The position numbers were made by a program, and so were the translations under genes. From the IMG/VR virus record IMGVR_UViG_3300034374_003578, positions 1 through 38,924 of that record: a DNA stretch of 38,924 bases; one strand, 5' to 3'. A model generated the notes under the pieces. It searched no databases and had not been told where the DNA came from. It saw only the letters and a list, made by a program, of their open reading frames with translations. The first letter of the stretch is position 1. Each line of letters starts with the position of its first letter. This document shows positions 1,778-34,691 of the stretch, piece after piece. The DNA comes from a virus.

Positions 1778-2479
1778 ATGATACCAAACAGAAAGATAAA
1801 ATGGTTGTGGGATAAAAGAATCGTTACCACACGATACCCCATAACAGATAAGCCAACCAAAACATTCAACTGGGGTTGGTTCTACGAACAGGGTACATAT
1901 GAGTACTACTCCCTGTTTCGATCTCCACACATGATTAAGACCCCTAACGGGTTTTCTTGGCATCTTCGAGTTCTTCATCACCTAAACGATTTTAGCTACG
2001 ATGAACTAGTCGAGGTGGCTAACTTCATTGCGTGTAAGAGAAATGGATTCACCGCATCACATATAAACAACAAAACAAGGGATGACATCATCACTAATTT
2101 ATGGAATGACAAAAGTGGTAACGCACCTGAGAATAGACTTAGAAAGGTTATATTTAAGGTTGGGTGTGGATTAGAGCAACACGAGAAAAGAAGTATCATA
2201 GGGCAACTAATAGGTCGCAGTAGTCGTATTACTACTGACGATGTTATTGATTGTGCGCATCTTATTAGTGAGTCAAATAAGAAGGTAACTATAAGTGGTA
2301 TAAGTCGTAGCCTTGGTTGTTCAAGGGTATTTCTTTACGACATAATGGATGAGGACATAAGAGAGCAGATACATCGTCTAAATGAAGATTTAAACGATGA
2401 AAAGCTACAGCGAAAAAAGCTATCTAAGATACAAGAAGGATGCACTGGAAAGTCAGCCAATATTCAAGCATTGGGATGA
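1778..2479 (+). CDS. phage protein with C-terminal HTH-like segment
   Basis: A 233-aa protein. The N-terminal half is rich in Trp and other aromatics (KIKWLWDKR, FNWGWFYEQG) and matches no family I can name. Around residues 168-190 the segment KVTISGISRSLGCSRVFLYDIM reads as a helix-turn-helix, with helix, turn (LGCS) and recognition helix, followed by a charged helical tail. The tail overlaps the downstream sigma-factor gene by 83 bases in another frame. Position directly before a sigma factor fits a DNA-binding regulatory role, but this is inference. Confidence 0.65.
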   Translation: MIPNRKIKWLWDKRIVTTRYPITDKPTKTFNWGWFYEQGTYEYYSLFRSPHMIKTPNGFSWHLRVLHHLNDFSYDELVEVANFIACKRNGFTASHINNKTRDDIITNLWNDKSGNAPENRLRKVIFKVGCGLEQHEKRSIIGQLIGRSSRITTDDVIDCAHLISESNKKVTISGISRSLGCSRVFLYDIMDEDIREQIHRLNEDLNDEKLQRKKLSKIQEGCTGKSANIQALG

Positions 2480-3137
2480 GTACACAAGGGATGAACTTAT
2501 AATCAAATTCCTACCACTAGTTGAGAGTATATCTAGGTCATTTAATTCAAGTGACATGTCCTCTGGGATTCTTGACATGATGGATCTGATCCAGTATGGT
2601 TCCATCGGTCTAGTGTCAGCCGTGGATAAGTTTGATGTGGAACTGTGCATGTCTAAGCCAGACCCTGAAAAAAGCATCAAGTCCTTCTTGGCTAAAAGAA
2701 TTAAGGGAGCAATAAGGAGGGCCATCGATAATAATCGTGGAACCATGAAGATTACCGAGTATAGACAGAACGAGATTAGAAGAACAAAGGAGGGTGTTGA
2801 GTTGATATTCAATAGTATATTCAAGAGCATAGATGCACACGACTCTAACGGTTCCAACCAGTTCTATAACATACCAGAGATTAACAAGACGTTCAACGTG
2901 GAGATACTTAATAGATACCTACTGTCTATCATGAAGAATGTTTTAGATACCGAAGAATACCACATCGTCAGAATGTTCTATGGTCTGGACTGTCGAAAAC
3001 GTAGCGCAAAAGAGATAGCTAGTGAGTTAGGTATTAGTGGGAACAACAGCAACGTGAAGGTATCCACGATAAAGAAAGCAGCTATAGATAAATTAATTAA
3101 TAAAATAAATCCTGAAATTGTTTTGGGGTTAATGTAA
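2397..3137 (+). CDS. sigma-70 family RNA polymerase sigma factor
   Basis: A 246-aa protein. Residues about 33-112 match sigma region 2: ELIIKFLPLVESIS, then DLIQYGSIGLVSAVDKFD, the core-binding signature equivalent to DLIQEGNIGLMKAVEKF, followed by a basic stretch KRIKGAIRRAI. Residues about 180-235 match region 4: LDTEEYHIVRMFYGLD, then the HTH SAKEIASELGIS and TIKKAAIDKL. The protein would recruit host core RNA polymerase to phage promoters. The ATG at 2397 lies 83 bases inside the upstream gene; no later Met precedes region 2, so the overlap seems real. A promoter lies near its 3' end (3122-3151). Confidence 0.85.
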   Translation: MKSYSEKSYLRYKKDALESQPIFKHWDEYTRDELIIKFLPLVESISRSFNSSDMSSGILDMMDLIQYGSIGLVSAVDKFDVELCMSKPDPEKSIKSFLAKRIKGAIRRAIDNNRGTMKITEYRQNEIRRTKEGVELIFNSIFKSIDAHDSNGSNQFYNIPEINKTFNVEILNRYLLSIMKNVLDTEEYHIVRMFYGLDCRKRSAKEIASELGISGNNSNVKVSTIKKAAIDKLINKINPEIVLGLM

Positions 3138-8868: not shown

Positions 8869-9827
8869 TGGGATTATTTACACCTAGAATAGAATATAAA
8901 CCTTTTGAGTATCCTGAGTATTACACGGAAGGTTGGCTGAAGCAGGCGCAAGCGTTTTGGCTACATACAGAAATATCAATGTCTGGTGACGTTAAAGACT
9001 GGCATGAGAACTTAACATTGTCAGAGAAAAATTTAGTAGGTAATATCTTACTTGGCTTTGCGCAGACTGAATGCGCTGTATCTGATTACTGGACACAGAA
9101 AGTTGTGTCATGGTTCCCAAAGCACGAGATACAGCAAATGGCTATGATGTTTGGTTCGCAAGAAACAATACATGCAGTGGCATACTCTTATTTAAATGAA
9201 ACACTTGGATTAAACGACTTTAAAGCATTTTTACATGAAGAGGCAACGGCAGATCGCTTTAACAATCTTGTGGCTTATGACGGCAATGATACTGTGGGCA
9301 TCGCTAGATCGCTGGCAATATTTAGCGCATTCGCAGAAGGTGTATCACTGTATAGTGCTTTCGCTGTTCTTTATAGTTTCCAGCTCCGCAACCTTCTCAA
9401 AGGAATAGGTCAGCAAATGAAGTGGAGTGTTCGAGATGAGTCTCTTCATAGTCGCATGGGTTGTAAACTGTTTAATCACATGTGTTCTGAAGATGAAACT
9501 TTAAGATCAAAGGTTATGGACGATGTTATTGCCGCGGCTGAAACAATGATTGAGCTTGAGCATAAATATATTGATAAGATGTTTGAGATGGGTGATCTTG
9601 AAAATCTAAAAGCTGAAGATCTTAAAAACTTTATTATCAAGCGAACAAATGAAAAGCTACATGAACTTAACTATGATTATGGTTTTGATTATGACGCTGA
9701 GTCAGCTAAACAGCTTGACTGGTTCTACCATTTAACTGGTGGACATACGCATACAGATTTCTTTGCTATTAGACCGACTGATTACAGTAAGGCTAATGAA
9801 GGGGAAGACTTTAACGATATCTGGTAA
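8868..9827 (+). CDS. nrdB: class I ribonucleotide reductase, small (beta) subunit
   Basis: A 319-aa R2 protein that holds the metal cofactor and generates the radical for NDP reduction. Ligands seen: GSQETIH (Glu99, His102), AFAEGVS (Glu157), RDESLH (Glu191, His194). The radical Tyr position is occupied by Tyr106, four residues after the ETIH histidine. At the first ligand position the motif appears to be QTE (Glu68) rather than the classical Asp. The C-terminus is acidic (NEGEDFNDIW), as expected for the tail that docks on the large subunit. It shares one base with the next gene (TAATG). Confidence 0.93.
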   Translation: MGLFTPRIEYKPFEYPEYYTEGWLKQAQAFWLHTEISMSGDVKDWHENLTLSEKNLVGNILLGFAQTECAVSDYWTQKVVSWFPKHEIQQMAMMFGSQETIHAVAYSYLNETLGLNDFKAFLHEEATADRFNNLVAYDGNDTVGIARSLAIFSAFAEGVSLYSAFAVLYSFQLRNLLKGIGQQMKWSVRDESLHSRMGCKLFNHMCSEDETLRSKVMDDVIAAAETMIELEHKYIDKMFEMGDLENLKAEDLKNFIIKRTNEKLHELNYDYGFDYDAESAKQLDWFYHLTGGHTHTDFFAIRPTDYSKANEGEDFNDIW

Positions 9828-10147
9828 TGCCACTTAAGTTTAAATGTACCGAGTGTGGCGCATGCTGTAGGTTGGTAGGTATGTCAACAATAGAACATAA
9901 CCTGCCAGTAAGAGATGATGGTTCGTGTGGATATCTTGTAGATAATAAGTGTTCTATATATGATGACAGACCAGATTATTGCAGGGTAGATAAAATGGGA
10001 TTTAATTATGCTGGATTAGATAGGATTGAATACTATAAAGAATCAAACAAGGCTTGTAATAAATTAATAGACTATCTTGGTCTTGATGAAAAGTTTAAAA
10101 TAGATTATGAAAGAGAGTACACTAATAGAGATGCAGAAGAAGATTGA
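9827..10147 (+). CDS. YkgJ-family cysteine-cluster protein
   Basis: A 106-aa protein with the family hallmark CxxCxxCC near the N-terminus (Cys7, Cys10, Cys13, Cys14) and further Cys34, Cys42 and Cys52 (the CSIYDDRPDYC stretch). YkgJ/UPF0153-type proteins are predicted to bind zinc or iron or an Fe-S cluster. Placement between the two reductase subunits suggests a role in metal supply or maturation of the reductase, but that is inference. Start shares one base with the R2 stop. Confidence 0.85.
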   Translation: MPLKFKCTECGACCRLVGMSTIEHNLPVRDDGSCGYLVDNKCSIYDDRPDYCRVDKMGFNYAGLDRIEYYKESNKACNKLIDYLGLDEKFKIDYEREYTNRDAEED

Positions 10148-10337
10148 GTCACTGACTCGATTGATGCAGCACATTCTTAATGAACAGCAAAGATTAACCG
10201 AAATGTCAGTGGGTACACTTGAGCTGATCAAGCTTATGCCTGATTATGATAAAGCCTTGGAGGATCTGAAAGAAAAAAACTTAGAAGAACTAAAAAATAA
10301 TAAGGAGAATGTCGAGTCACAAGTGGGTGAAGGGTGA
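10131..10337 (+). CDS. small coiled-coil protein between reductase genes
   Basis: A 68-aa protein from ATG 10131 (MQKKIESLTRLMQHILNEQ). An upstream in-frame ATG at 10107 would extend it by eight residues into the cysteine-cluster gene. It is almost wholly helical with heptad spacing (SLTRLMQHILNEQQRL; ALEDLKEKNLEELKNN), indicating a coiled coil. It overlaps both neighbours (17 and 29 bases). Function unknown; possibly an adaptor in the nucleotide-metabolism cluster. Confidence 0.6.
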   Translation: MQKKIESLTRLMQHILNEQQRLTEMSVGTLELIKLMPDYDKALEDLKEKNLEELKNNKENVESQVGEG

Positions 10338-12030
10338 GGACTACCCTAAATGGGCAGACTCAGATGTATACAAGAAAACTATAGGTGGAGGGTATCTACT
10401 CAACGGTGAGACACCAAGGGATGCTTATTGGAGGGTTGCTAAAACAGTGGCTTCTCATCTTGAGCGACCCGAAATGGCTGACAGGTTCTTTGAGTATATA
10501 TGGAATGGATGGCTTTGTCTAGCCTCACCAGTGCTATCAAATACGGGGACCACAAGGGGTCTACCTATTAGTTGTTTTGGTATTGATGTGGCAGACTCGA
10601 TTGCAGACATAGGCGGTAAGAACCTAGAAATGATGTTGTTAGCTAAACATGGTGGTGGTGTTGGTGTAGGTATCAACCAGATTAGACCATCAGGATCTAA
10701 CATAAAGGGTAATGGAACGTCTGACGGAGTTGTTCCGTTCTGTAAGATTTATGACTCAGCAATACTAGCCACCAACCAGGGTTCGGTTCGAAGAGGAGCT
10801 GCATCCGTTAATTTAAACATCGAACACGATGACTTTGAGGATTGGTTGGAGATCAGGGAGCCAAGGGGTGATGTGAATCGACAGTCACTTAATCTTCACC
10901 AGTGTGCTGTTGTGGGTGATAAGTTTATGCGTAAGCTACAAGATGGTGACGAAACAGCTAGGCGTAAGTGGAGTAAGCTACTGCAAAAGCGCAAGTCTAC
11001 TGGTGAGCCGTACATTATGTATAAGGGTAATGTCAATAAGCAGAATCCAGACATGTACCGACATAATGGTTTGAAGGTACACATGACAAATATCTGTTCT
11101 GAGATTGTTCTACACACCGATGAAAATCATAGCTTTGTGTGTTGCCTGTCTTCCTTGAATCTAGCTAAGTATGACGAGTGGAAGGGTACCAACCTGATAC
11201 ACGACTCCATTTGGTTTTTAGATGGAGTCCTTGAGGAGTTTATCCAAAGAGCAAAGGGTAAGATAGGATTTGAAAATTCAGTTAGGTCAGCTGAGAAGGG
11301 TAGAGCATTAGGTCTTGGTGTTCTTGGATGGCACACTTATTTACAAGACAAAGGAATACCCTTTGAAGGATTATTAGCACAATATGAAACTAGAAAAATA
11401 TTTTCTCAAATTAAAATCGAAACTGAACGAGCGTCTATGGCGCTTGCTGAGAGCTTTGGGGAGCCACTTTGGTGTTCTGGATCAGGCCTTAGAAATACTC
11501 ATCTACGGGCCATTGCTCCTACTGTTAGTAATAGTAAACTTAGTGGGAATGTTTCTCCTGGTATTGAGCCTTGGGCTGCTAATGTATTTACGGAACAAAG
11601 TGCGAAAGGTACGTTCATTCGTAAAAATCCTTCTTTAGAAAAAGTACTAAAGCTTCATAAGCTTAACACCGATGAGATCTGGGACAAGATACTCAGGGAT
11701 GGTGGTTCAGTTCAAGGTATTGACGAGTTGAATGACATCACTATTGGTAAGTATAAAATACCACTCAAGGAGGTGTTTCAAACATTCAAGGAGATTAATC
11801 AGCTGGAGATAGTCAATCAGGCTGGGATACGACAACAGTACATAGATCAAAGCGTTAGCCTCAATCTAGCGTTTCCCTCAACCGCAACGCCTAAGTTTAT
11901 CAATAAGGTTCACCTAGAAGCGTGGAAGAAGGGTATAAAGACGCTGTACTATGTTCGTACTGAATCTGTTCTCAGGGGAGATATTGCCGATAAGGCTACA
12001 GATGAGAACTGTTTAAGTTGTGATGGATAA
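10309..12030 (+). CDS. nrdA: class I ribonucleotide reductase, large (alpha) subunit
   Basis: A 573-aa catalytic subunit reducing ribonucleotides to deoxyribonucleotides. Motifs: PISC with redox Cys89, NxCxE at Asn261, Cys263 and Glu265 (thiyl-radical site), redox Cys at 278/279 in FVCCLS, radical-path Tyr547-Tyr548 (TLYYVRTES), and a C-terminal CLSC (Cys568, Cys571) for re-reduction by thioredoxin or glutaredoxin. It begins directly in the catalytic region, so it lacks the N-terminal ATP-cone that allosterically limits activity in typical cellular enzymes (750-850 aa). An AAGGAG lies only one base before the ATG, too close to be a normal Shine-Dalgarno site. Confidence 0.93.
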   Translation: MSSHKWVKGEDYPKWADSDVYKKTIGGGYLLNGETPRDAYWRVAKTVASHLERPEMADRFFEYIWNGWLCLASPVLSNTGTTRGLPISCFGIDVADSIADIGGKNLEMMLLAKHGGGVGVGINQIRPSGSNIKGNGTSDGVVPFCKIYDSAILATNQGSVRRGAASVNLNIEHDDFEDWLEIREPRGDVNRQSLNLHQCAVVGDKFMRKLQDGDETARRKWSKLLQKRKSTGEPYIMYKGNVNKQNPDMYRHNGLKVHMTNICSEIVLHTDENHSFVCCLSSLNLAKYDEWKGTNLIHDSIWFLDGVLEEFIQRAKGKIGFENSVRSAEKGRALGLGVLGWHTYLQDKGIPFEGLLAQYETRKIFSQIKIETERASMALAESFGEPLWCSGSGLRNTHLRAIAPTVSNSKLSGNVSPGIEPWAANVFTEQSAKGTFIRKNPSLEKVLKLHKLNTDEIWDKILRDGGSVQGIDELNDITIGKYKIPLKEVFQTFKEINQLEIVNQAGIRQQYIDQSVSLNLAFPSTATPKFINKVHLEAWKKGIKTLYYVRTESVLRGDIADKATDENCLSCDG

Positions 12031-12210
12031 TTAGCGCTTAGAGTAGTAGACGATGGTAACTTTACTGTCGTCTTCTCTAATGTGCTTCACAACTTTACCG
12101 TTATAGTCCCTGTATACAGTTACTTTACTACCAAGCGGATCAATACCGCTTTGACTTGAAAGACAACTGGTTAGAGAGATTGTTAGTATGAAAAAAATTA
12201 ACTTACGCAT
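12031..12210 (-). CDS. 59-aa lipoprotein
   Basis: A short minus-strand gene whose stop abuts the reductase stop (12030/12031). The N-terminus MRKLIFFILTISLTSC is a lipoprotein signal peptide: basic n-region, hydrophobic core, lipobox LTSC with Cys16 followed by LSSQ. The mature part is about 44 residues, charged and beta-prone (VTVYRDYNGKVVKHIRED). It would be lipid-anchored in the host envelope. Phage lipoproteins of this size can serve superinfection exclusion or act as outer-membrane spanins; neither can be chosen from sequence. Last gene of the leftward block, after a gap of about 200 bases. Confidence 0.8.
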   Translation of the reverse strand: MRKLIFFILTISLTSCLSSQSGIDPLGSKVTVYRDYNGKVVKHIREDDSKVTIVYYSKR

Positions 12211-12391
12211 GCTTTATGTTTTGGTAAAAATAAGTAAATGTTATTAAAACATTAACTACTTATATTAATAATTACACGCGTAAGCCGATTCTTATGTTAA
12301 GTTTTTTTTGAAATTATGCTATACACATATGCATTGTGTAGTATATATATGTATATTTGTGTTCTGTTTTGTTTGTTTGGTTATGGTTTAG
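12211..12391. other. AT-rich intergenic stretch with antisense -7 box
   Basis: No protein-coding gene is supported here. It holds an inverted repeat AATGTT-ATTAA-AACATT around 12238-12254, a T-run at 12302-12309, and on the plus strand TATATTTG at 12352-12359, a perfect TAnnTTTG box with only a partial TTG element 15 bases upstream. If active, that promoter would make a transcript of roughly 50-60 bases ending at the terminator at 12392-12418. Confidence 0.4.
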
Positions 12392-12418
12392 GGGTGGTCT
12401 TGATTGGCCACCCTTTTT
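12392..12418 (+). terminator. rho-independent terminator of the rightward block
   Basis: GGGTGGTC (12392-12399) pairs with GGCCACCC (12406-12413) in an 8-bp stem with one G-T wobble and a 6-base loop, followed by TTTTT. It reads rightward and would end the reductase transcript before it runs into the opposing giant gene, whose stop codon begins at 12417. The reverse orientation has no T-run. Confidence 0.8.
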
Positions 12419-15400
12419 ATTTCCTAACTCGATCTAGCTTTACATCAATCTTACCCCTTGCTATTTGGCTTCGCATCGCTGAACTTATCCCATTGTCCTT
12501 CATTGTAGCCCTAATATCTCTTGGCTTTACACCCAGGGATATTAATGAGTTATATAGGTTTACCGCCACTTGGTAGTCATCGTTCATTGCTTTTTGGGTG
12601 GCTCTAATTACCCTATCAACATCTGCCTGGGTTTCATAGTCATCTAGATTATTCTTCATTGAGTTGTAAGCCCTCTTTGACTCCTGAGCTTCGTCTTGTA
12701 TATCTCTAAACTTAAAGCCAGCCTGCTCTAGTGATTTTACTTCATGCACCTTAAATCCAGTAAGCTGACCAATCGCCTCGTTTAATTTTTTCTCTGATTG
12801 AACAATCTTTCTCATTGATGTAAGGGACCCTGGCTCAATTGTCTTATATAATTGAAGTGCTATTTTTCCAGATACCTCAAATGGAGTGTCTGTTTTTCTC
12901 CAGATCTTACCTCCGTAATCATTTTCATTGTTTGATACATTCCTGAGTGTATTAAGTAGTATATCCTCCGAAACAAATGGCCCTGCTAGCTCTCCTAATA
13001 TTTCAGAAAAATCTTCCCCAGTTTTAGCGTAGTTTGTTGTAGCGTTAACAACCTTAAATATACTTCCGTATGGGTCGGATGCCGATATACTTACATATGT
13101 GAAATTACCATTTGGTTTTACTTCTTGAATTGCTATGTCTGAATTTGTATCCCAGAACGGTAGAAGCATTCTTATCTTTTCTGACAGGCCATCTTCATCA
13201 TCGTCTCCTGGGACTAGTGGTATACCAAAAAGTGATATCATACCATACTTAAACGCCTGGAACCCTATAATACTAGCCAGCCTCATAGCTCCCCTCTTTT
13301 GCGCTAATTTTTTCCCAGCCTCAGAGGCGCCAGGTATGTCCCCCTTAATTTCTTTAATAGCCAATGCTACGGTGTTATAAGCGGTTCTATAGGCCTCTAT
13401 CTGGAATGAAATAAACGTACCAGCGACAGGGAATGCCTTGAATAATTTACCAGCAGCACCAATTCTACCGTAGTTTGGTAGTATGTTTTTGATTATTTCA
13501 GCAACATAGTCATTAACCGCTGATTGCTGAGACGCGTCTAACTGGTTGTATGACTTGCCATCGAAAAGAATCTTACTATAGTTTAGTTTTTCCTTTTCGT
13601 AGGCCACGATCTTAAACATGTCATCCTCATACTGGTATGCCTCCTGTGACTTTTCACCGAATTTTTTAATACCCCTTCCAGTTTTGCTCAGTATGTTATT
13701 GGTCTTTTCGTCAATCCTCTTAGCTAAGGCTTTCTCGAAAGACTCTTCACCTTCAAATATTGCTTTTATTTCACCAATAGTAGCTCCCTGACCTATTATA
13801 CCAGCCCTGATCCACTCATCCATCTTGGCCTCTTGCTCTGCTGTTAATTCTTTTCCAACAAATAGCTTGGCTAATACCATAAATGGTTGTTGATATTCTC
13901 TTGGGTCTAGATACCCATTCTGAGCCATGAAGTACATGTTACCTATTACGTTCTTAGCGTGTGTGCCAAAAGATAGAATTGTTTTACTGTACTTAACGGC
14001 ACCAACACCCTTTAACCAATAACCATACACTTTCCCAATGTCGGGTACTTCAGCAAAGTATTTAGCTATGTCCTTTTGCTTAAACGCTTTTACCACAGCA
14101 GATGGCGCATACAACCCATCTAGTGGATTCATACTAGCGTCACCCTCAAATGATATCTTTTCGTATCCCTCTGGTACTTTTTTCCCAGCCTCTTTTTCAA
14201 ACAACCATACACCCAATCCAGCATCCCTTATCTTGGTTAGATATTTTTGAGACTCAACTAAATTGGCGATTTTGAAAACACTCATGGCGTAGTTATACCC
14301 AGGGTCTGTGTACTCACCCATTAAAGCTCTAATGGCAGGCGGTATATCCTTTCTCCTCTTAAGCGAACGAAGATCTTTTCTACCAATCTTAGGCTGTGCA
14401 AATAAGATGTACTCATTCACATCATTTTTCGATAAAATACTGTCTATAATGTCATCTACATGCATGGTTAGCGCCTCATCCTCAGTCACACCGTCTCGGT
14501 CCATTATTTCCTTTACAGAGGCCTTGTTTGATAATATCCTATTCTTGCGTCTGTTATAATCAGCCTCTGTTATACTACCGTCCTTTAGTTGTTGGTCTAG
14601 CTCCTTTATACCGTTTAGACTATTGTAGTAAGCATCCCTTAAGTGGTTTTGTGCGGCTGTTATGACTTGATCACTGACCTCGTTCTTCCAGTTCTTGTTA
14701 TCAAAAATCTCATATGATCGATTCATGTACACACCGATATTATCTAGTATGTTCTGAGCGCTACGGTCAGCCTTTATCACACCTAGGTCGATAAGCTTAA
14801 GACTAAGGGAGTCAATGTGGTCCCTCATAGCTTGAGCCATCTGAGCAATATCTTCTGGAAGTTCATCCCTCCAGAAATTCCTCTCTTCTGCGTCCCTCAT
14901 AAATTCATTTACAGCGTCTAGCAGCTCATCTCTTTTATCTTGAGACTTGTATCTATTTATGGCACTATTTAAGGCTTCTGCCATCATTTTAGCTTGCCTC
15001 AACTCAGCTGAGATAGCTGACTCCATAGCCTCATGAGCCAAGAACATACTTTGTGTTCTAAAGCCACGGGCAGATAGGGCACCTCTTCTAGCGTACTCGA
15101 ACCAATTCTTAACCTTTTTCCCGTCTTTATTCCAAACTCTTTCAGCATCGTAAGCTCCAGACTCAATCTCTTGTTCGGTGTACCCAAGCTTAATCAAGTG
15201 ATTCTTGATATCTATACCTGGTATACCCCTTTGGATACCCCACTCAAACGCATCTTTAATTTTAGCGCTTGGCTTTTTCTTTTTTCGTTTTCTTATTGCA
15301 GGTTCTTCAGCTCCAGATACACCAGTGTATAGAGATAGAGCTATCGAAGTATATGGATTAACAATTAAATTAGAGTATCCATTTTCTTTGAGCCATTTAG

Positions 15401-18400
15401 AAATCATTCCCTTATCTACTATTGTAGCTCTAACAAGTCCTAATGGGTTTCTTTTTGGTGCTTCTTTTACAAACTTTGTGTTGTTAGCCTCATTATAAAT
15501 ATCTATACCCTTTTGCTCTGGATAACCCATGAGTGGGAATAGTTTGTTGACATCATATGCGGAATCGAGTAAAAAATTTCCTTTAGATTTAAAACTTGAA
15601 TTAAACTGAGCATGGTCAACACCTAGTTTAGCGTGGTTTATTTGACTCTCCAAAGATTCTGATGGGTCATAAAAAAATCCTGAAAAAGTTTTCTTTGCTA
15701 CAGTTTTTCCTTTTTCGTTTTGAAGACGTTCCTGTTGTATTCCTTTTAAAAATCTTTCGTCAATAAATTTATTCCAAAAATCATTTAAAAAATAACCAGA
15801 TTCAGCTAGACTTTTCTTGAAATTTACGTTCTTTCCTGTTTTCGATGCTGATTCTTTGTTGGATAATAAATCTTTATTTAAGTTAACTCTAAAACCAAAA
15901 GAAAAATCTTTAGATGCTAGTTTTTTCGCAATATCTAACCTGCCTTCATGGGTTTTAAACTTACCGTCTTCAACCATTTTTAATAAAGCATCCTTAGATT
16001 TTTTATCCCGTAAGCCGTCTTCTGTTTTCCCGACTTTAGCAGATTTAATTGCTTCTACAAAATCTTTTTCTGCTTGCTTTAATCCTCCATTGTACTTTTT
16101 ATTTACTATCGATGCATCTAGACCCTCCATAATATATTCAGCAGCATACCATTCACCTAGCATTGTCTCACCATTTTGAGATGCCACAAAAACAGCTATT
16201 GGTTTTCCTTTATGCTCTGGATTCTTTCTATCTCTTTCAGCAACTAAATCAGATGCCGCTGTTTTTAGCTGAGATATTTTTTTGTCTTCACTTGCCGCAA
16301 AACCTATATCATCTTTTACATTTTGTTCTATAAATGTATAATCTATACCGCCTTGCAAGATCAATTCCCTACCATTAACCACAACCTTACCAACCTTAGT
16401 TCCATCACTATTTATAAAAATAGCCGCCCCACCAGACTTTTCTAAAACATCATCAATTGATGTCTTTTCTGGGTAAATCATTTTAACCCCATCTACTTTA
16501 GGGGGTGTGGTGTCAAAGTCCTTTACCTTTGCTTGTTTGCTTTTCCTTATATCTGTACCACCAAGTATTTGAGAGCCTGGAGTAGATATTTCCTCCTCCA
16601 TTATTAATGATGTTGCAACCTCCTCTCCTGGTTGAGTTAAACGAGTTAAATCTTGCTCGGTTAATACACCTCCCTCACTCATCTTTTGAGCAACAAAATT
16701 CAATGTGTCTACAATCGCAGCATCTGTTTTACCCAAACCAACGGAAGACAACGGGGCGCCCTTTGGTTTTAATCCAAGTATCTCAGCTAGTTTTTCTAAC
16801 CATCTTCTGATTAAGCTTTTGGTTTCATTGTTTTGCTCGTTGTAGTTATTGGCTAGAATACCAATCAACTCAGCTATGTACTCCTCGTTCTGTTGAGGGG
16901 TTTCATACATTTCTGTAAACTCTTCAAGCTCCCTTTGTAGTTTCTTAGTTGCAGTCTTCTTAACCGCATCAATCATTCTACCAGTTACAGCTTTAGCTTG
17001 AGCATTTGACAACCCAGCAGCCCTCAACACAGCGTGTAGACCCTCGTGGAATACTGTGACAACATCAGCAGAATCTGGGTTAAGCACAATAACGTACTCT
17101 TCTTCAAATGTTTTACTATCTGGGACTGGCATTTTTCGGAATATGCCCTTAGACATATCCTCTCTTTTGTATCCCTCTTCTTCAGCGAATAATGCGAACT
17201 GCTCTGCACTCTCAGCCATAGCAATAACTATGTTTGGCATTACACTACTTAATGATTGATCAAGCAGGTCTATAGCTCTTTCAACCTTATCTAGTCTCTC
17301 ATTATCCCTTCTGGTTCTACCCTCTCTTGACGCTTTTCTTTGAGACTTATCAAGACCCAGTATCTTTTCTAATTCAGACGCAACCTCTTCACTTAATTCT
17401 GGAACAGCCTTAAGTCCCTCTGTCACAGCCTCAGCTTCCACTTGTTCGGTAGTTGGGGCAACTTCCTCAACAGGAACAGCTTCTTCTACTGGTTTTATTA
17501 TTTCTGACTTACCATCAATACCTGATGGCGGTATGATTTTGACGGGTACTTGATATTTATTAGCTAACTCTTGTGCTTTTTGTTTTGTTTTCTCAAATTC
17601 TTTATTATGCTCTTCCTGCATGAATTTCTTAACATAAGAAGATTCATCAAGACCTGCTTTTTCAGCCTCATCAAAAAAATCAACACTCGAAATTACAGAA
17701 TCATAGGACTGAGGTGATGTAGGTAACTCAATACCTATTAATCCTCCCTCTTTTGATAAATCAACATTTTCATCAGATAGTAATTCTTTTTCTTCTTTAT
17801 ACCTTTTTCCTTTTCTTAGTAAAGGTTTTATACCATCCTTATTGAATATTAATTTTGCGTAACGCATACCCCTACCATCCCAGTCAGGTTCTTCTGTAAA
17901 AAACACAGCGTCATCATCTTGTTCTATTCTTGCGGTTTTGCTTACAGATGGTAACAATAACACACCTTGTTCTAACGCTTTCGTTGTCAAGGAATTGTGA
18001 TATATTTTATTAGGAGTATCTTCAAATACTTCTTCTACAGCCTCAGCTTCCACTGGTTGGGTAGTTGGGGCGGCCTCTCTTGGTTTAGGGGCGGCTTCTT
18101 TTCTTTCCTTAATATAATTTATTTCCTCAGTGATAAACTGATCAACAACCTCCGTAGGCACAGCAGCCATCTCCGCTATAATATTATTCATAGCTAGCGG
18201 TATACCTACCTCTGGGTCATTGATAATAATTTCGTTACCCTCAGCATCCTCAATGGCAAGGGCTGTAAAATCACCCTCTTCATTTGTGTATAAGAAGTTT
18301 TCTGGGTATGTGAATGTTGTAACTCTTGCGTCTTGACCCCTCTGACCTTCTGGCGTTATTGATATGGTGTTTCCACCAGTAAATGTCACAGTTACATTTC

Positions 18401-21400
18401 CGACTCCTGTGACTTTTGCGTTTGAGGTTGACTTTTTGGGTATTTCTCTTTTAGCTTCTGCACGACCCTCAGCTGATTCTTCAGGGGTAACTTTGCGAGT
18501 TTCAGTCTTTGTTCTAAATTCATAGTTATCCAGTATTTCTGCTACGCCATATAGCTGTTGTTTGATTGACTCTTTTGCATTGTCTGATATATCCAGTCCG
18601 TCTACACGATCAATCTCAGTAAAGATCTGATCGATGCCAGCGTCAATCTCATTATCGTTAATATAATCAGCGTTGTTTATTTTAGTAAGTGTATTATCAA
18701 CGCCTGATAACCTACCATCTTCTTTTTGTTGTTTACTGTAATCGTCTATAGACTTGAGGTCTGCTAATCCAGCCTCAGCTCCCTGAACCATCTCACCAAA
18801 CACTCTAGTAAACTCATCTACATTTCTGCCCTGAATGGTTACGCCAGCCTCTGGGAATGCCACATATGGATTGCTTTCAACAAACTCAATAGCTTGCTGT
18901 TCATTCATAATTAATGCTGGACCCTTACCGATCTGAACCGAAACAAAGGAACCACCAGTCTCTGGATTATTTAAGAAATCTTGTGCGTTCTTTTTAAGTG
19001 TGTTTGCCTGTTCGGTCAGTGTGGCTCTCGTAACCTTATCGTCCGTAATAGACTCAGCTTGGTTGTATAGTTCATTTGCCCTATGCGATAATGCAAAGTA
19101 TGTGTTCTTCTGTTCCTCTGTTAGATTTAGGCCACTTACATTTCTTAAGAATCCCTCAGCCGTCTTTGAGTATGTGTATAGTCTATTAAGATCCTCCTCT
19201 GTTATAACACCATTTTTTTGTAGCGTACTTAACCAAGAGTTTGTAAAGTTCTTTCCAAACTGGTTCATGGAAGCAAAAATCTTTTGACGTATAAAGGACT
19301 CGTTGTCATCAACCAATCCAGCCCTTGTTTTTGCAACCATCTCTTTTACAAGCTTGTCTGCCTGTCTATCCATCATAAACTCAGTGAAAGCTCTAACGCC
19401 ACCACCTAAGGCAAACGAACCTGGCGCTACTTCTAGAAATGTTTCCTTTACTAATTCCTGATTGATTCTATCGGAAAATCCTCTGGCTGTAATCTCCGTT
19501 TCATCAAAAACAGTCTGCATAATCTGCTGTTCTTGAGCTGTTTGGAATGTTTCCTGAGGTGTTTCCGTTAAAACGGATTCAGCACCTGCAATGCCAATAC
19601 GAGCGGCCCTAGATGGAATAGCTCTTAACGCTTTACCAACGTATGGAAGCCCATCAAATATATATGTCCACCAGTTACCAAGCTGTGCCTCCCACATAGC
19701 TCCAGCGGCCTGTTCACCTTTAAGCAAACTACCCGTCTCTCTGATAACATCTCTCTTTATGTTACCTCCCATATCAATGCTCTCCGTCATCCATGAAGCT
19801 AAAGCGACCAACCCCATGGCAGGTACGGTTCCTAATCCACCAGTACCAGCAGAAACAGCTGCACCAACAAGAATTGAAGGTAATGCTGAGCCAGCCAATC
19901 TACCAATACTCTTGGTTACGGCTGGAATATTGGCTAAATCAGACCAGTCTTCAACCCTCTCATCGGCAACAGAAAATGCGGTGTTCATCTCATCGCCAAA
20001 TTCCACCATCCATGGAACATCAAAATAGGTGCCAGCACCAGATACATACCTAGATAGTGTTGAATTTATAGATTTCCCAAGTAATGGGATCAATGCGGCA
20101 CCTCCGTATTTGTATACGGACATCATTTCCTGGCTCTTTAGCTTACCAAATCTCTCTTTATTAACCTCTTCACTAACTCTTTTTACAGCATCATTTAGCT
20201 TCTGTAAATCATCTGGATTCATTGGGTTGTCTTGGAGAAACCGCTTAAAACCACCCTCAATTTTCTTGTAGTACTCAGTTGTAAGCTCCTCTAAATCCTG
20301 CTTGTTGTTTTGAATGATTAAATTTTCAGCGTTTTGTAGATCAGAGTATAGCTGTTTGTTATAGTCTGAAAGCTGTTTGTTTGCGTCTTCAGGGGTTATG
20401 ATGCCCTGGTTAACTTGAGATTGAAGCTCTTGTTTGTATGAGTTTACATCTGAATTATAGTCAGCGGATAGTTTATTCAGCTTAAACTCAGCGCCACTGT
20501 TGATTGCTTTTACGGCGGAGGCGAACTCAGCCTTATATCTTATACCGTCTTTATTTGTAGACTCAAACTCGTCTAGTCCTTCAGACCTGTATCGAGAGAA
20601 TATATCCTGAATCTCTGAATCAGATTTAATCTTTTCCTCAGTCATTCTAATTTCCTCGTCCTTCTCAGCTCTATCGAATATTCTTTCGTAGGCCACCTGT
20701 CTAACTCCACGATTTCCTTCAGCAATTGATTCGGCTATCTCGTCCGCTAAATCAGCCACCTTCTCTGCATCGGCCCTCCTGACCCCGTTAAAATCCTCCT
20801 CAGTTAGATCGTAAAAATCCACACCTCTAGACTCCACCTCCTTAAGAACATCTTCTGCTATTCTGCTTTCGAGCTTGTATACCTCTGGTCTTAACTTTTT
20901 ACCAAGTGGACTGCTAGGCCCTATATCTATAACCGCCCTTCTAGCATCGTCAGATAGGTCATAGTCATTTGTTCTTTCTGCTTTGTATACGATTGCAGCA
21001 GCTCTTTCTTGATTAAGTTTATCCTTCTCTTCTTTATAAAACTTTCTTTCTGGCTGTGTTAATCCACGGGTACCTAAATAAAAGTTCGTTTGTTCTAGTC
21101 TGTTGTCAATATCATTGAGGGCGCTATCAAGCTGTATGGGATCATAGGCGCTGTACATACTCACAAGCCTTGAGGATGGGGAATCCTCCTCACTTATAAG
21201 CCCAGACACTGATTTTAAATACTCCTCCTGCTTCTTTCTTGCTCCAGCTAAGTAATCATCGGTTTTAGATACGCCAAATAAATCTACATCAACGATAGGC
21301 TTCTTTAAAGGCTCTGAAGGCTGCTTTGGTTGCTCTCCAGAGCCTTCGATAAAACCCTCGTCAGTCCCTCCAGAACTTAGTCTTTTTTCATAGTCATTGT

Positions 21401-21557
21401 AGTCTCCAAGAGAAAATCCTTTAGCAGAAACAGCTTCAAAAAAGTTTTTTCTATCGTCTTCGGTCTGCATTTTAGAAACAAATGTGTCGTAGTCCCCAAT
21501 GTTGAATTTGGCACTTACAGCCTCATGTAGTTTTCTGTACTCTTCGTTCATTACCAT
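12417..21557 (-). CDS. giant polyvalent virion/cargo protein with HEGLH metallopeptidase motif
   Basis: A 3046-aa protein, about 340 kDa. The N-terminus has a tandem motif EAVSAK...GDY (residues 12-30 and 41-60). About 557-590 is Gly/Ala-rich and hydrophobic (SILVGAAVSAGTGG). About 1180-1350 is a KIYHN-led module, possibly ART-like, framed by repeated linkers. HEGLH at 1504-1508 with an acidic EEYIAEL at 1558-1564 suggests a zinc metallopeptidase. Near 1707 is GGAAIFINSDGTKVG. About 2517-2555 (SFGTHAKNVIGN) resembles the LPD38-type large polyvalent protein domain. It is the last large gene of the late block, where crAss-like phages encode ejected cargo. No RNA polymerase motif was found. The start may instead be the ATG at 21551, which overlaps the upstream stop as TAATG. 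Confidence 0.8.
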   Translation of the reverse strand: MVMNEEYRKLHEAVSAKFNIGDYDTFVSKMQTEDDRKNFFEAVSAKGFSLGDYNDYEKRLSSGGTDEGFIEGSGEQPKQPSEPLKKPIVDVDLFGVSKTDDYLAGARKKQEEYLKSVSGLISEEDSPSSRLVSMYSAYDPIQLDSALNDIDNRLEQTNFYLGTRGLTQPERKFYKEEKDKLNQERAAAIVYKAERTNDYDLSDDARRAVIDIGPSSPLGKKLRPEVYKLESRIAEDVLKEVESRGVDFYDLTEEDFNGVRRADAEKVADLADEIAESIAEGNRGVRQVAYERIFDRAEKDEEIRMTEEKIKSDSEIQDIFSRYRSEGLDEFESTNKDGIRYKAEFASAVKAINSGAEFKLNKLSADYNSDVNSYKQELQSQVNQGIITPEDANKQLSDYNKQLYSDLQNAENLIIQNNKQDLEELTTEYYKKIEGGFKRFLQDNPMNPDDLQKLNDAVKRVSEEVNKERFGKLKSQEMMSVYKYGGAALIPLLGKSINSTLSRYVSGAGTYFDVPWMVEFGDEMNTAFSVADERVEDWSDLANIPAVTKSIGRLAGSALPSILVGAAVSAGTGGLGTVPAMGLVALASWMTESIDMGGNIKRDVIRETGSLLKGEQAAGAMWEAQLGNWWTYIFDGLPYVGKALRAIPSRAARIGIAGAESVLTETPQETFQTAQEQQIMQTVFDETEITARGFSDRINQELVKETFLEVAPGSFALGGGVRAFTEFMMDRQADKLVKEMVAKTRAGLVDDNESFIRQKIFASMNQFGKNFTNSWLSTLQKNGVITEEDLNRLYTYSKTAEGFLRNVSGLNLTEEQKNTYFALSHRANELYNQAESITDDKVTRATLTEQANTLKKNAQDFLNNPETGGSFVSVQIGKGPALIMNEQQAIEFVESNPYVAFPEAGVTIQGRNVDEFTRVFGEMVQGAEAGLADLKSIDDYSKQQKEDGRLSGVDNTLTKINNADYINDNEIDAGIDQIFTEIDRVDGLDISDNAKESIKQQLYGVAEILDNYEFRTKTETRKVTPEESAEGRAEAKREIPKKSTSNAKVTGVGNVTVTFTGGNTISITPEGQRGQDARVTTFTYPENFLYTNEEGDFTALAIEDAEGNEIIINDPEVGIPLAMNNIIAEMAAVPTEVVDQFITEEINYIKERKEAAPKPREAAPTTQPVEAEAVEEVFEDTPNKIYHNSLTTKALEQGVLLLPSVSKTARIEQDDDAVFFTEEPDWDGRGMRYAKLIFNKDGIKPLLRKGKRYKEEKELLSDENVDLSKEGGLIGIELPTSPQSYDSVISSVDFFDEAEKAGLDESSYVKKFMQEEHNKEFEKTKQKAQELANKYQVPVKIIPPSGIDGKSEIIKPVEEAVPVEEVAPTTEQVEAEAVTEGLKAVPELSEEVASELEKILGLDKSQRKASREGRTRRDNERLDKVERAIDLLDQSLSSVMPNIVIAMAESAEQFALFAEEEGYKREDMSKGIFRKMPVPDSKTFEEEYVIVLNPDSADVVTVFHEGLHAVLRAAGLSNAQAKAVTGRMIDAVKKTATKKLQRELEEFTEMYETPQQNEEYIAELIGILANNYNEQNNETKSLIRRWLEKLAEILGLKPKGAPLSSVGLGKTDAAIVDTLNFVAQKMSEGGVLTEQDLTRLTQPGEEVATSLIMEEEISTPGSQILGGTDIRKSKQAKVKDFDTTPPKVDGVKMIYPEKTSIDDVLEKSGGAAIFINSDGTKVGKVVVNGRELILQGGIDYTFIEQNVKDDIGFAASEDKKISQLKTAASDLVAERDRKNPEHKGKPIAVFVASQNGETMLGEWYAAEYIMEGLDASIVNKKYNGGLKQAEKDFVEAIKSAKVGKTEDGLRDKKSKDALLKMVEDGKFKTHEGRLDIAKKLASKDFSFGFRVNLNKDLLSNKESASKTGKNVNFKKSLAESGYFLNDFWNKFIDERFLKGIQQERLQNEKGKTVAKKTFSGFFYDPSESLESQINHAKLGVDHAQFNSSFKSKGNFLLDSAYDVNKLFPLMGYPEQKGIDIYNEANNTKFVKEAPKRNPLGLVRATIVDKGMISKWLKENGYSNLIVNPYTSIALSLYTGVSGAEEPAIRKRKKKKPSAKIKDAFEWGIQRGIPGIDIKNHLIKLGYTEQEIESGAYDAERVWNKDGKKVKNWFEYARRGALSARGFRTQSMFLAHEAMESAISAELRQAKMMAEALNSAINRYKSQDKRDELLDAVNEFMRDAEERNFWRDELPEDIAQMAQAMRDHIDSLSLKLIDLGVIKADRSAQNILDNIGVYMNRSYEIFDNKNWKNEVSDQVITAAQNHLRDAYYNSLNGIKELDQQLKDGSITEADYNRRKNRILSNKASVKEIMDRDGVTEDEALTMHVDDIIDSILSKNDVNEYILFAQPKIGRKDLRSLKRRKDIPPAIRALMGEYTDPGYNYAMSVFKIANLVESQKYLTKIRDAGLGVWLFEKEAGKKVPEGYEKISFEGDASMNPLDGLYAPSAVVKAFKQKDIAKYFAEVPDIGKVYGYWLKGVGAVKYSKTILSFGTHAKNVIGNMYFMAQNGYLDPREYQQPFMVLAKLFVGKELTAEQEAKMDEWIRAGIIGQGATIGEIKAIFEGEESFEKALAKRIDEKTNNILSKTGRGIKKFGEKSQEAYQYEDDMFKIVAYEKEKLNYSKILFDGKSYNQLDASQQSAVNDYVAEIIKNILPNYGRIGAAGKLFKAFPVAGTFISFQIEAYRTAYNTVALAIKEIKGDIPGASEAGKKLAQKRGAMRLASIIGFQAFKYGMISLFGIPLVPGDDDEDGLSEKIRMLLPFWDTNSDIAIQEVKPNGNFTYVSISASDPYGSIFKVVNATTNYAKTGEDFSEILGELAGPFVSEDILLNTLRNVSNNENDYGGKIWRKTDTPFEVSGKIALQLYKTIEPGSLTSMRKIVQSEKKLNEAIGQLTGFKVHEVKSLEQAGFKFRDIQDEAQESKRAYNSMKNNLDDYETQADVDRVIRATQKAMNDDYQVAVNLYNSLISLGVKPRDIRATMKDNGISSAMRSQIARGKIDVKLDRVRK
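17425..17459 (-). repeat. direct repeat, downstream copy, inside the giant gene
   Basis: 35 bases identical at 33 positions to 18037-18071. It encodes a PTTEQVEAEAV-type linker at about residues 1367-1378. The two copies are 612 bases (204 codons) apart, so they are in frame and bracket one domain. Confidence 0.85.
18037..18071 (-). repeat. direct repeat, upstream copy, inside the giant gene
   Basis: Partner of 17425-17459. It encodes PTTQPVEAEAV at about residues 1163-1174, just before the KIYHN-led module. Confidence 0.85.
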
Positions 21558-33176: not shown

Positions 33177-34691
33177 TTAGGCAGATACGCTCTTGAACAA
33201 CACAAAGTTGTTAGCCGCCTGAGTAACTAAGCAACGCTCAGAAAGGAAGTGAACCTTCATTACGTCTTCTCCTGAAGTAGCAGCACCACCTACAGAACCA
33301 GTAATCCAAGACTTCATTCTTCGATCATCAGCCTCAGATGCACGGTAACGTACATGCAAGAATGGACGACGAATGTTAGTACCTAGCATTTGGTCGTAAA
33401 CAGTAGTTGTTCCAGCAGGAACCAAGACTCCATCTACGTCTTCAGTAAGACCACGAGTAGAAGCATCGTTAAGATATTTCCAGTCAGTCTTATAGAAATC
33501 GTAAGAACCTCTTCGGAATCCAGAGAATCCAAGATTCAAAGCCATCTCAGCGCTGTTTTCAAATACTCCGTAAGAAGTACCACCAGCACCGTAAGAGTTC
33601 TGAGCAGCAAGCATGTCATCCATATCAAGCGAAGTAGCTCGATTCAAGAACAGCATGTTCTCCTCAATAGCGCCCTGCTTGTCAAGGTTAGCAAGGATCT
33701 TGTCGAAGTCAGCCAATCCAGTTGCAGCAGAGAAGTTGTTGTAAACATTTCCTCGTGCCTCAACAGCAGCAAACAAACCTTCAGTACCCTTTACGTTTGC
33801 GCTAGAGCTACCTCCAGCAAGTTGTCCGATAGCGGCTGAACCAGCAGCAGCAAGCTCACCTTCAACAGAAACCATCTCAAGATAGTCTTGGAATCGTAGA
33901 CGAGTCTCGCCTTCAGCCTTCAAGTACCAAAGGTATCCAGAAAGACCAGCCTCATCAGTTACTTCAACCCAACCAATTTGAGCAGAATCAGATCCTGAAA
34001 CCTCGTACTGATCCTTGATGATTACTGGGCTGTTGCTGTACTGAGTGAATGATGGTGTGACAGAACCAACCATAGAGTCAGTTCCCTTACCAAACTCAGA
34101 ACCGTAAACGAAGATTTTAACATCTCCACCCTCACCTGGCTGTCCAACAGCAGTAGAAACTGCGTTTAGGTTGGCAGCATCGTATGGGAAAGCGTTAACA
34201 TCCCAGTTAGTAGCTCCAGCAGCAGGCTCTGCGTCAACAAAACACTTAACAGAAGCAAAACTCACTGTGTTGTAAACAACAATAGTAGAACCAGCTCGGA
34301 TGATTGGCTGGATTGATTCTCCAGCAGCATTCTCGCCAGCTACGTTTGTAATTACTGTAGCGCCAGCTGCAATAGCAGGAGCAGAAACAGTGGTTGCTCC
34401 ACCACCGCCCATACCAGGTACGAATGACAAGTGAAGACGGTTTTGCTCAGACCAAACAACTTGGTCAGATGTCATTGGCATTTCAGCGCCAACCATGCGA
34501 AGGAAGCCAGAGATTGTACGGTTACCGTAACGCTCTACTTCAGCTTCGTAGATTTCAGGTAGATACTGCTGTGCGAAGTCGTTTCCGCTACCATCAGTAA
34601 AGTTTAAATAAGAACCTTGGGTTACACTCTTAAACGGAGTAGGTACCAAGGAAAACGAACCCAACGGGTCGTTAGTTGCAAATGATCCCAT
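33177..34691 (-). CDS. major capsid protein
   Basis: A 504-aa protein. The segment TPFKSVTQGSYLNFTD near the N-terminus and YLPEIYEAEVERYGNRTISGFLRMVGAEMPM followed by SEQNRLHLSF at about 42-90 are recognisable as the capsid protein of crAss-like and marine Bacteroidota podoviruses (HK97 fold expected). Codons are enriched in preferred C/G third positions relative to neighbours, as in a highly expressed gene. Lies after the scaffold gene with a five-base gap and is followed by a strong terminator. Confidence 0.88.
   Translation of the reverse strand: MGSFATNDPLGSFSLVPTPFKSVTQGSYLNFTDGSGNDFAQQYLPEIYEAEVERYGNRTISGFLRMVGAEMPMTSDQVVWSEQNRLHLSFVPGMGGGGATTVSAPAIAAGATVITNVAGENAAGESIQPIIRAGSTIVVYNTVSFASVKCFVDAEPAAGATNWDVNAFPYDAANLNAVSTAVGQPGEGGDVKIFVYGSEFGKGTDSMVGSVTPSFTQYSNSPVIIKDQYEVSGSDSAQIGWVEVTDEAGLSGYLWYLKAEGETRLRFQDYLEMVSVEGELAAAGSAAIGQLAGGSSSANVKGTEGLFAAVEARGNVYNNFSAATGLADFDKILANLDKQGAIEENMLFLNRATSLDMDDMLAAQNSYGAGGTSYGVFENSAEMALNLGFSGFRRGSYDFYKTDWKYLNDASTRGLTEDVDGVLVPAGTTTVYDQMLGTNIRRPFLHVRYRASEADDRRMKSWITGSVGGAATSGEDVMKVHFLSERCLVTQAANNFVLFKSVSA

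Follow-up and report, generated by a model that had tools for sequence, protein, structure and literature searches.

The question raised by this locus is whether the short interval between two convergent genes of a 38.9-kb virus fragment, hereafter the window (i.e., the whole stretch of DNA analysed), holds a gene of its own and, if so, what its product does. The plus-strand neighbour is nrdA (10309-12030), identified by family search as encoding the large subunit of a class I ribonucleotide reductase. The minus-strand neighbour (12417-21557) encodes a giant protein of 3046 aa with a weak PHROG virion-structural match. The 386-bp gap between them holds a lipoprotein gene alone, on the same strand as the giant gene and downstream of it (12031-12210, minus strand; coding 12034-12210, stop codon TAA at 12031-12033). 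Its 59-aa product, MRKLIFFILTISLTSCLSSQSGIDPLGSKVTVYRDYNGKVVKHIREDDSKVTIVYYSKR, consists of MRKLIFFILTISLTSC followed by a 44-residue mature part in which the lipid cysteine is counted.

The N-terminus has the anatomy of a type II signal peptide (residues 1-15; 12166-12210, minus strand): an n-region with R2 and K3, an uncharged hydrophobic h-region (LIFFILTIS) and a lipobox, LTS followed by Cys16, the predicted lipid cysteine and the sole cysteine of the protein. The sequence LTSC agrees with the lipobox consensus [LVI][ASTVI][GAS]C (PMC6139136). These are the marks of an Lgt/LspA substrate (a K/R n-region, an uncharged hydrophobic h-region and a lipobox ending in Cys within ~15-30 residues), and the homologue described below carries them as well. 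Under an explicit lipoprotein-signal filter, only 12031-12210 passed among the 184 window ORFs of at least 40 aa. The chance expectation is 0.13 passes per composition-matched random window (second-order Markov) and ~0.001 for the 386-bp gap. The first-pass annotation had described exactly this ORF, with n-region, hydrophobic core and lipobox complete and with a stop abutting the reductase stop, and each of these points was recovered: the stop at 12031-12033 directly adjoins that of nrdA at 12028-12030. Its description of the plus strand as noncoding requires some qualification, given the frame continuous with nrdA remains open for ~42 codons past the nrdA stop; this frame is unused, and the substitutions among relatives fit the minus-strand frame.

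A homologue of 58 aa, 78% identical, was found in two IMG/VR contigs (L001 and L002) at the same spot, convergent with nrdA and again abutting it. Loss of the frame in related phages had been named beforehand as grounds for rejecting the gene; in both contigs the frame is conserved, as are the start codon, the stop, the lipobox and the C-terminus EDDSKVTIVYYSKR. In comparison with L001, the lipoprotein gene of the window presents a dN of 0.128, a dS of 0.82 and a dN/dS of ~0.16, and the 35 changes are distributed among codon positions 1, 2 and 3 as 8, 4 and 23, a third-position excess with a binomial P of 9e-5. The rival explanation is that 12031-12210 is not a gene, being instead a chance ORF, the nrdA 3' UTR or an RNA structure. 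Short ORFs are indeed common, as the count of 184 indicates, and L001 and L002 are nearly one and the same sequence, which makes the selection estimate effectively one independent comparison, i.e., one pair of 58 codons. Against this stand the ~0.001 lipoprotein signals expected in the gap, the values just given, the retention of start, stop and lipobox, and an Rfam search that returned no match at 12031-12210. A chance ORF or RNA feature was thus ruled out on signal statistics, codon-position pattern and the absent Rfam match; we consider this reading largely refuted and extremely improbable. The conserved position and frame in two contigs, together with the dN/dS ratio and the third-position excess, show on sequence grounds that 12031-12210 is a real gene kept by purifying selection.

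The neighbouring nrdA presented a pattern of its own. Between ~11200 and ~11540, synonymous divergence from L007 falls from saturated to 0.1-0.3, with no dip over 81 nrdA sequences, which looks like recent recombination. A second gene embedded in nrdA (ORF 11384-11638, plus strand, with a hydrophobic-hairpin-like product) was considered and rejected, given the synonymous variability over the 81 sequences shows no dip there; the dip in dS against L007 over this ORF was read as a local recombination tract.

The window ends inside terL, and relatives of this phage reach ~60-70 kb. It encodes the C-terminus of TerL, a portal, virion structural proteins and a crAss-type muzzle C-terminal domain. 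Because the muzzle-like protein has low-identity matches to Flavobacterium elemo phages and Cellulophaga phages, and a capsid-region protein (33177-34691) is common to relatives (55-67% identical), we infer that the host is a flavobacterium or close kin, the phage being a marine one of the Flavobacteria type. The giant protein has one detectable relative among the fetched phages, in L085 (~33%), found by a scan with the C-terminus of the giant gene, although the capsid, primase-helicase and nrdA are common to many of them. L085 carries another very small lipoprotein (9869-10117, minus strand; 82 aa, MRKFILILILITSCSS...) amid small genes, on the strand opposite its giant gene. Between nrdB and nrdA, the window encodes a CxxCxxCC putative zinc/iron-chelating protein (9827-10147, plus strand; PF03692).

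Presence of the lipoprotein gene varies among these phages. In L005, whose NrdA is 95% identical to that of the window in protein and 88% in DNA, the 35-base tail after the nrdA stop aligns to window positions 12314-12351 and leaves out 12031-12313, a segment of 283 bp between nrdA and the downstream hairpin. The alignment scores 46, and the best of 2000 shuffled tails reached 45; L005 being a 4.6-kb fragment, the absence covers the nrdA site alone. Presence and absence at one site between otherwise closely similar phages is the pattern by which morons are recognised, and as L005 lacks exactly this segment, the gene fits an optional, dispensable accessory trait. A profile search of 50 records gave a real match only in those of L001 and L002, and the distant giant-gene relative L085 is without the gene.

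Two elements lie upstream of the gene on the minus strand. The palindrome AATGTT-N5-AACATT (12237-12253) is kept in L001 and L002 with an altered loop; nowhere else in the window does an exact copy occur. Nearer the start is a promoter -7-like box, TATTTTTA (12225-12232), whose equivalent in L002, TATCTTTG, is of the TAnnTTTG type and sits in the same place, 17 nt before its ATG. TAnnTTTG is a Bacteroidota promoter type; since it is not enriched in the window, single matches are weak, and no clear -33 box is seen upstream of the gene. The conserved palindrome and the -7-like box fit a transcription unit of its own. As a phage-wide motif the upstream element was rejected: its only other match in the collection, in a further IMG/VR contig (L182), sits within a long coding gene. 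On the plus strand, an intrinsic-terminator-like hairpin computed at 12390-12415 (10 pairs, T-rich tail) likely ends the nrdA transcript after an antisense run through the lipoprotein gene. The whole plus-strand stretch past nrdA (12313-12417) folds strongly, as an AT-rich hairpin plus terminator (z -4.2), and L005 has a similar folding stretch directly after nrdA. No minus-strand terminator was found for the lipoprotein gene, and a scan of that strand between the giant gene and the lipoprotein gene showed no terminator-like site, so that late read-through from the giant gene is possible. The window also encodes a sigma-70-like protein with regions 2 and 4 (2397-3137, plus strand), which could serve phage-specific promoters.

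As for the product, the AlphaFold2 model, built from a three-sequence alignment and of moderate confidence (mean pLDDT 77), predicts a helix over residues 3-14 of the signal peptide and four beta strands in the mature part (Cys16-Arg59; 12034-12165, minus strand), at residues 18-23, 29-34, 40-46 and 51-55, with a block pLDDT of ~77-86. Bacteroidota lipoproteins destined for the cell surface carry an acidic export signal after the lipid cysteine, of the K-(D/E)2, SDDDD or SDDFE type (PMC5080379). The mature N-termini, CLSSQSG in the window and CLTTHKG in the homologue, have no D/E at +2 to +6; as this signal is missing, the mature part probably faces the periplasm from the outer membrane. The most hydrophobic 19-residue stretch begins at residue 5, within the signal peptide; with a lipobox and no C-terminal transmembrane segment, the protein is not a u-spanin.

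Searches for relatives yielded little. With the 59-aa protein as tblastn query, 50,697 phage records, characterised phages included, gave no hit even at E 10. Pfam gave no match above any curated cut-off, NCBIfam and PADLOC gave no match, and PHROG scores were marginal only. Weak matches alone were obtained from a PDB sequence search, the best (E 0.026) being to potassium channels. Foldseek found no match to the model at E <= 0.001 in PDB or BFVD, and the best VIA-align Z, 5.0 to the OspA sheet, is in the range the tool terms common. Capture from a host was also considered: a scan of genome contigs gave no relative, and when 299 genomes from the family to which G051, a MAG titled Flavobacteriaceae, belongs were searched with the profile, nine matches came back, all weak (the best at E 3.2e-4) and almost all on the signal-peptide end. 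Without a convincing host homologue, capture was rejected, this being weak evidence of absence. Small proteins diverge beyond detection, and judged by its sequence this one is an orphan family of the ordinary kind, small phage lipoproteins. The orphan sequence, the optional presence and the conserved mature domain are also what would be expected of an accessory lipoprotein of the envelope with a different role, such as altering outer-membrane stress, vesicles or nutrient uptake or countering a host envelope-sensing defence; given PADLOC has no match and no positive evidence points to any particular role of this kind, we regard this explanation as rather doubtful.

In 44 relatives, nrdA and a giant minus-strand gene converge across a gap of 0.57-3.4 kb, which holds an endolysin-family gene in 36, a small membrane protein in 17 and a lipoprotein in 9. 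Representative junction endolysins belong to Pfam Amidase_2 or Peptidase_M15_3 and to the PHROG lysis category. With 36 of 44 relatives carrying an endolysin there, the junction is lysis-associated and, by its gene content, a lysis/accessory locus. The junctions of L008-L081 change fast: the endolysin family switches between amidase and M15 peptidase, and small membrane proteins, lipoproteins and basic proteins are gained or lost.

These counts are the main ground for the rival reading in which the protein is an o-spanin-like lysis lipoprotein, what is left here of the lysis cassette found at this junction in relatives, and would take part in outer-membrane disruption during lysis, jointly with an inner-membrane partner whose gene lies elsewhere. 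The protein resembles o-spanins, both lambda Rz1 and those of the separated-gene class, in size, lipobox and a genomic position that relatives use for a lysis cassette, and separated o-spanins are often beta in character (PMC6139136). The lipoprotein gene of L002 is immediately preceded by a gene for a small basic protein of a type seen in the junction cassettes (cf. L008 and L019), and the possible read-through from the giant gene, like the lysis-locus position, favours such a role. The window gap (12031-12416), however, contains no endolysin, holin or i-spanin, and no ORF there that is adjacent to, overlapping or embedding the lipoprotein gene as the i-spanin of a two-component system would be. 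The high-hydropathy small ORFs of the window are all antisense to predicted genes, the lipid cysteine is the only one, and the gene is missing at this site in a near-identical phage, an optional presence that sets it apart from o-spanins. The junction lipoproteins of relatives (L009, L022, L030, L031, L033, L039 and L069), 92-228 aa long and next to lysis genes, share locus, strand and lipobox with the 59-aa protein but have no detectable sequence similarity to it. We therefore hold an o-spanin-like role to be possible, though unlikely.

The lysis role proposed in the first-pass annotation thus stands as regards the site and falls short as regards the gene, whose support as a lysis gene is positional only: it has no lysis partner beside it, no C-terminal membrane segment, and is absent from the near-identical phage. 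Little weight attaches to the further argument, that the lack of any other visible lysis gene in the window adds interest, because the window is a fragment ending inside terL and an annotated D-Ala-D-Ala carboxypeptidase of Elemovirus lies upstream of terL, a region beyond the window here; inspection by eye of L093, a close relative, showed no endolysin in the 2.3 kb that precede its terL. That the lineage lost its junction endolysin cassette, and that the lipoprotein is a new stand-alone lysis factor acting on the outer membrane, seems very improbable.

The size, the optional presence and the conserved upstream element favour instead an accessory envelope function such as superinfection exclusion. 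The T5 protein Llp, a small lipoprotein, closes FhuA from the periplasmic side and has a Cys11-Cys58 disulphide (PMC9586334). As in the T5 Llp/T1 Cor family, the 59-aa protein is a very small phage lipoprotein whose mature domain is short and whose predicted place is on the periplasmic side of the outer membrane; unlike Llp, it has the lipid cysteine as the only one of its mature part. No sequence similarity to Llp or Cor was found, the phage and the host phylum are different, and receptor blocking by the 59-aa protein is putative. Cys16 would be lipidated by the host Lgt/LspA pathway, and the mature part of 44 residues, a predicted small beta-sheet, would be tethered at the periplasmic face of the outer membrane, altering the infected-cell envelope from that side. 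There it might bind and close an outer-membrane receptor, so that further phages could not adsorb or inject.

In favour of the exclusion reading we count the lipoprotein anatomy, the conserved frame, the four-stranded model, the presence/absence difference with L005, the upstream elements and the T5 Llp precedent. Against it count the lack of a sequence match in the phage records, of a family match and of a convincing structural match, the lack of a clear -33 box, carriers limited to two nearly identical relatives, and a lysis-associated site, where read-through from the giant gene upstream could make it a late gene, in contrast to exclusion genes, which as a rule are early. Our best guess is that this accessory outer-membrane lipoprotein more probably acts in Llp-like exclusion than as an o-spanin; that it closes a receptor against further phages in the manner of T5 Llp is a tentative proposal, with somewhat less than an even chance of being correct.

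Small genes on the convergent strand are easily missed in phage annotation, and 12031-12210 is one that selection demonstrably maintains. With it, uncultured flavobacteriophages gain an orphan lipoprotein family, and the interval from nrdA to a giant virion gene emerges as a variable lysis/accessory locus with turnover of genes that act on the envelope. Should the exclusion reading be true, the gene would offer a testable Llp-like case in Bacteroidota phages.
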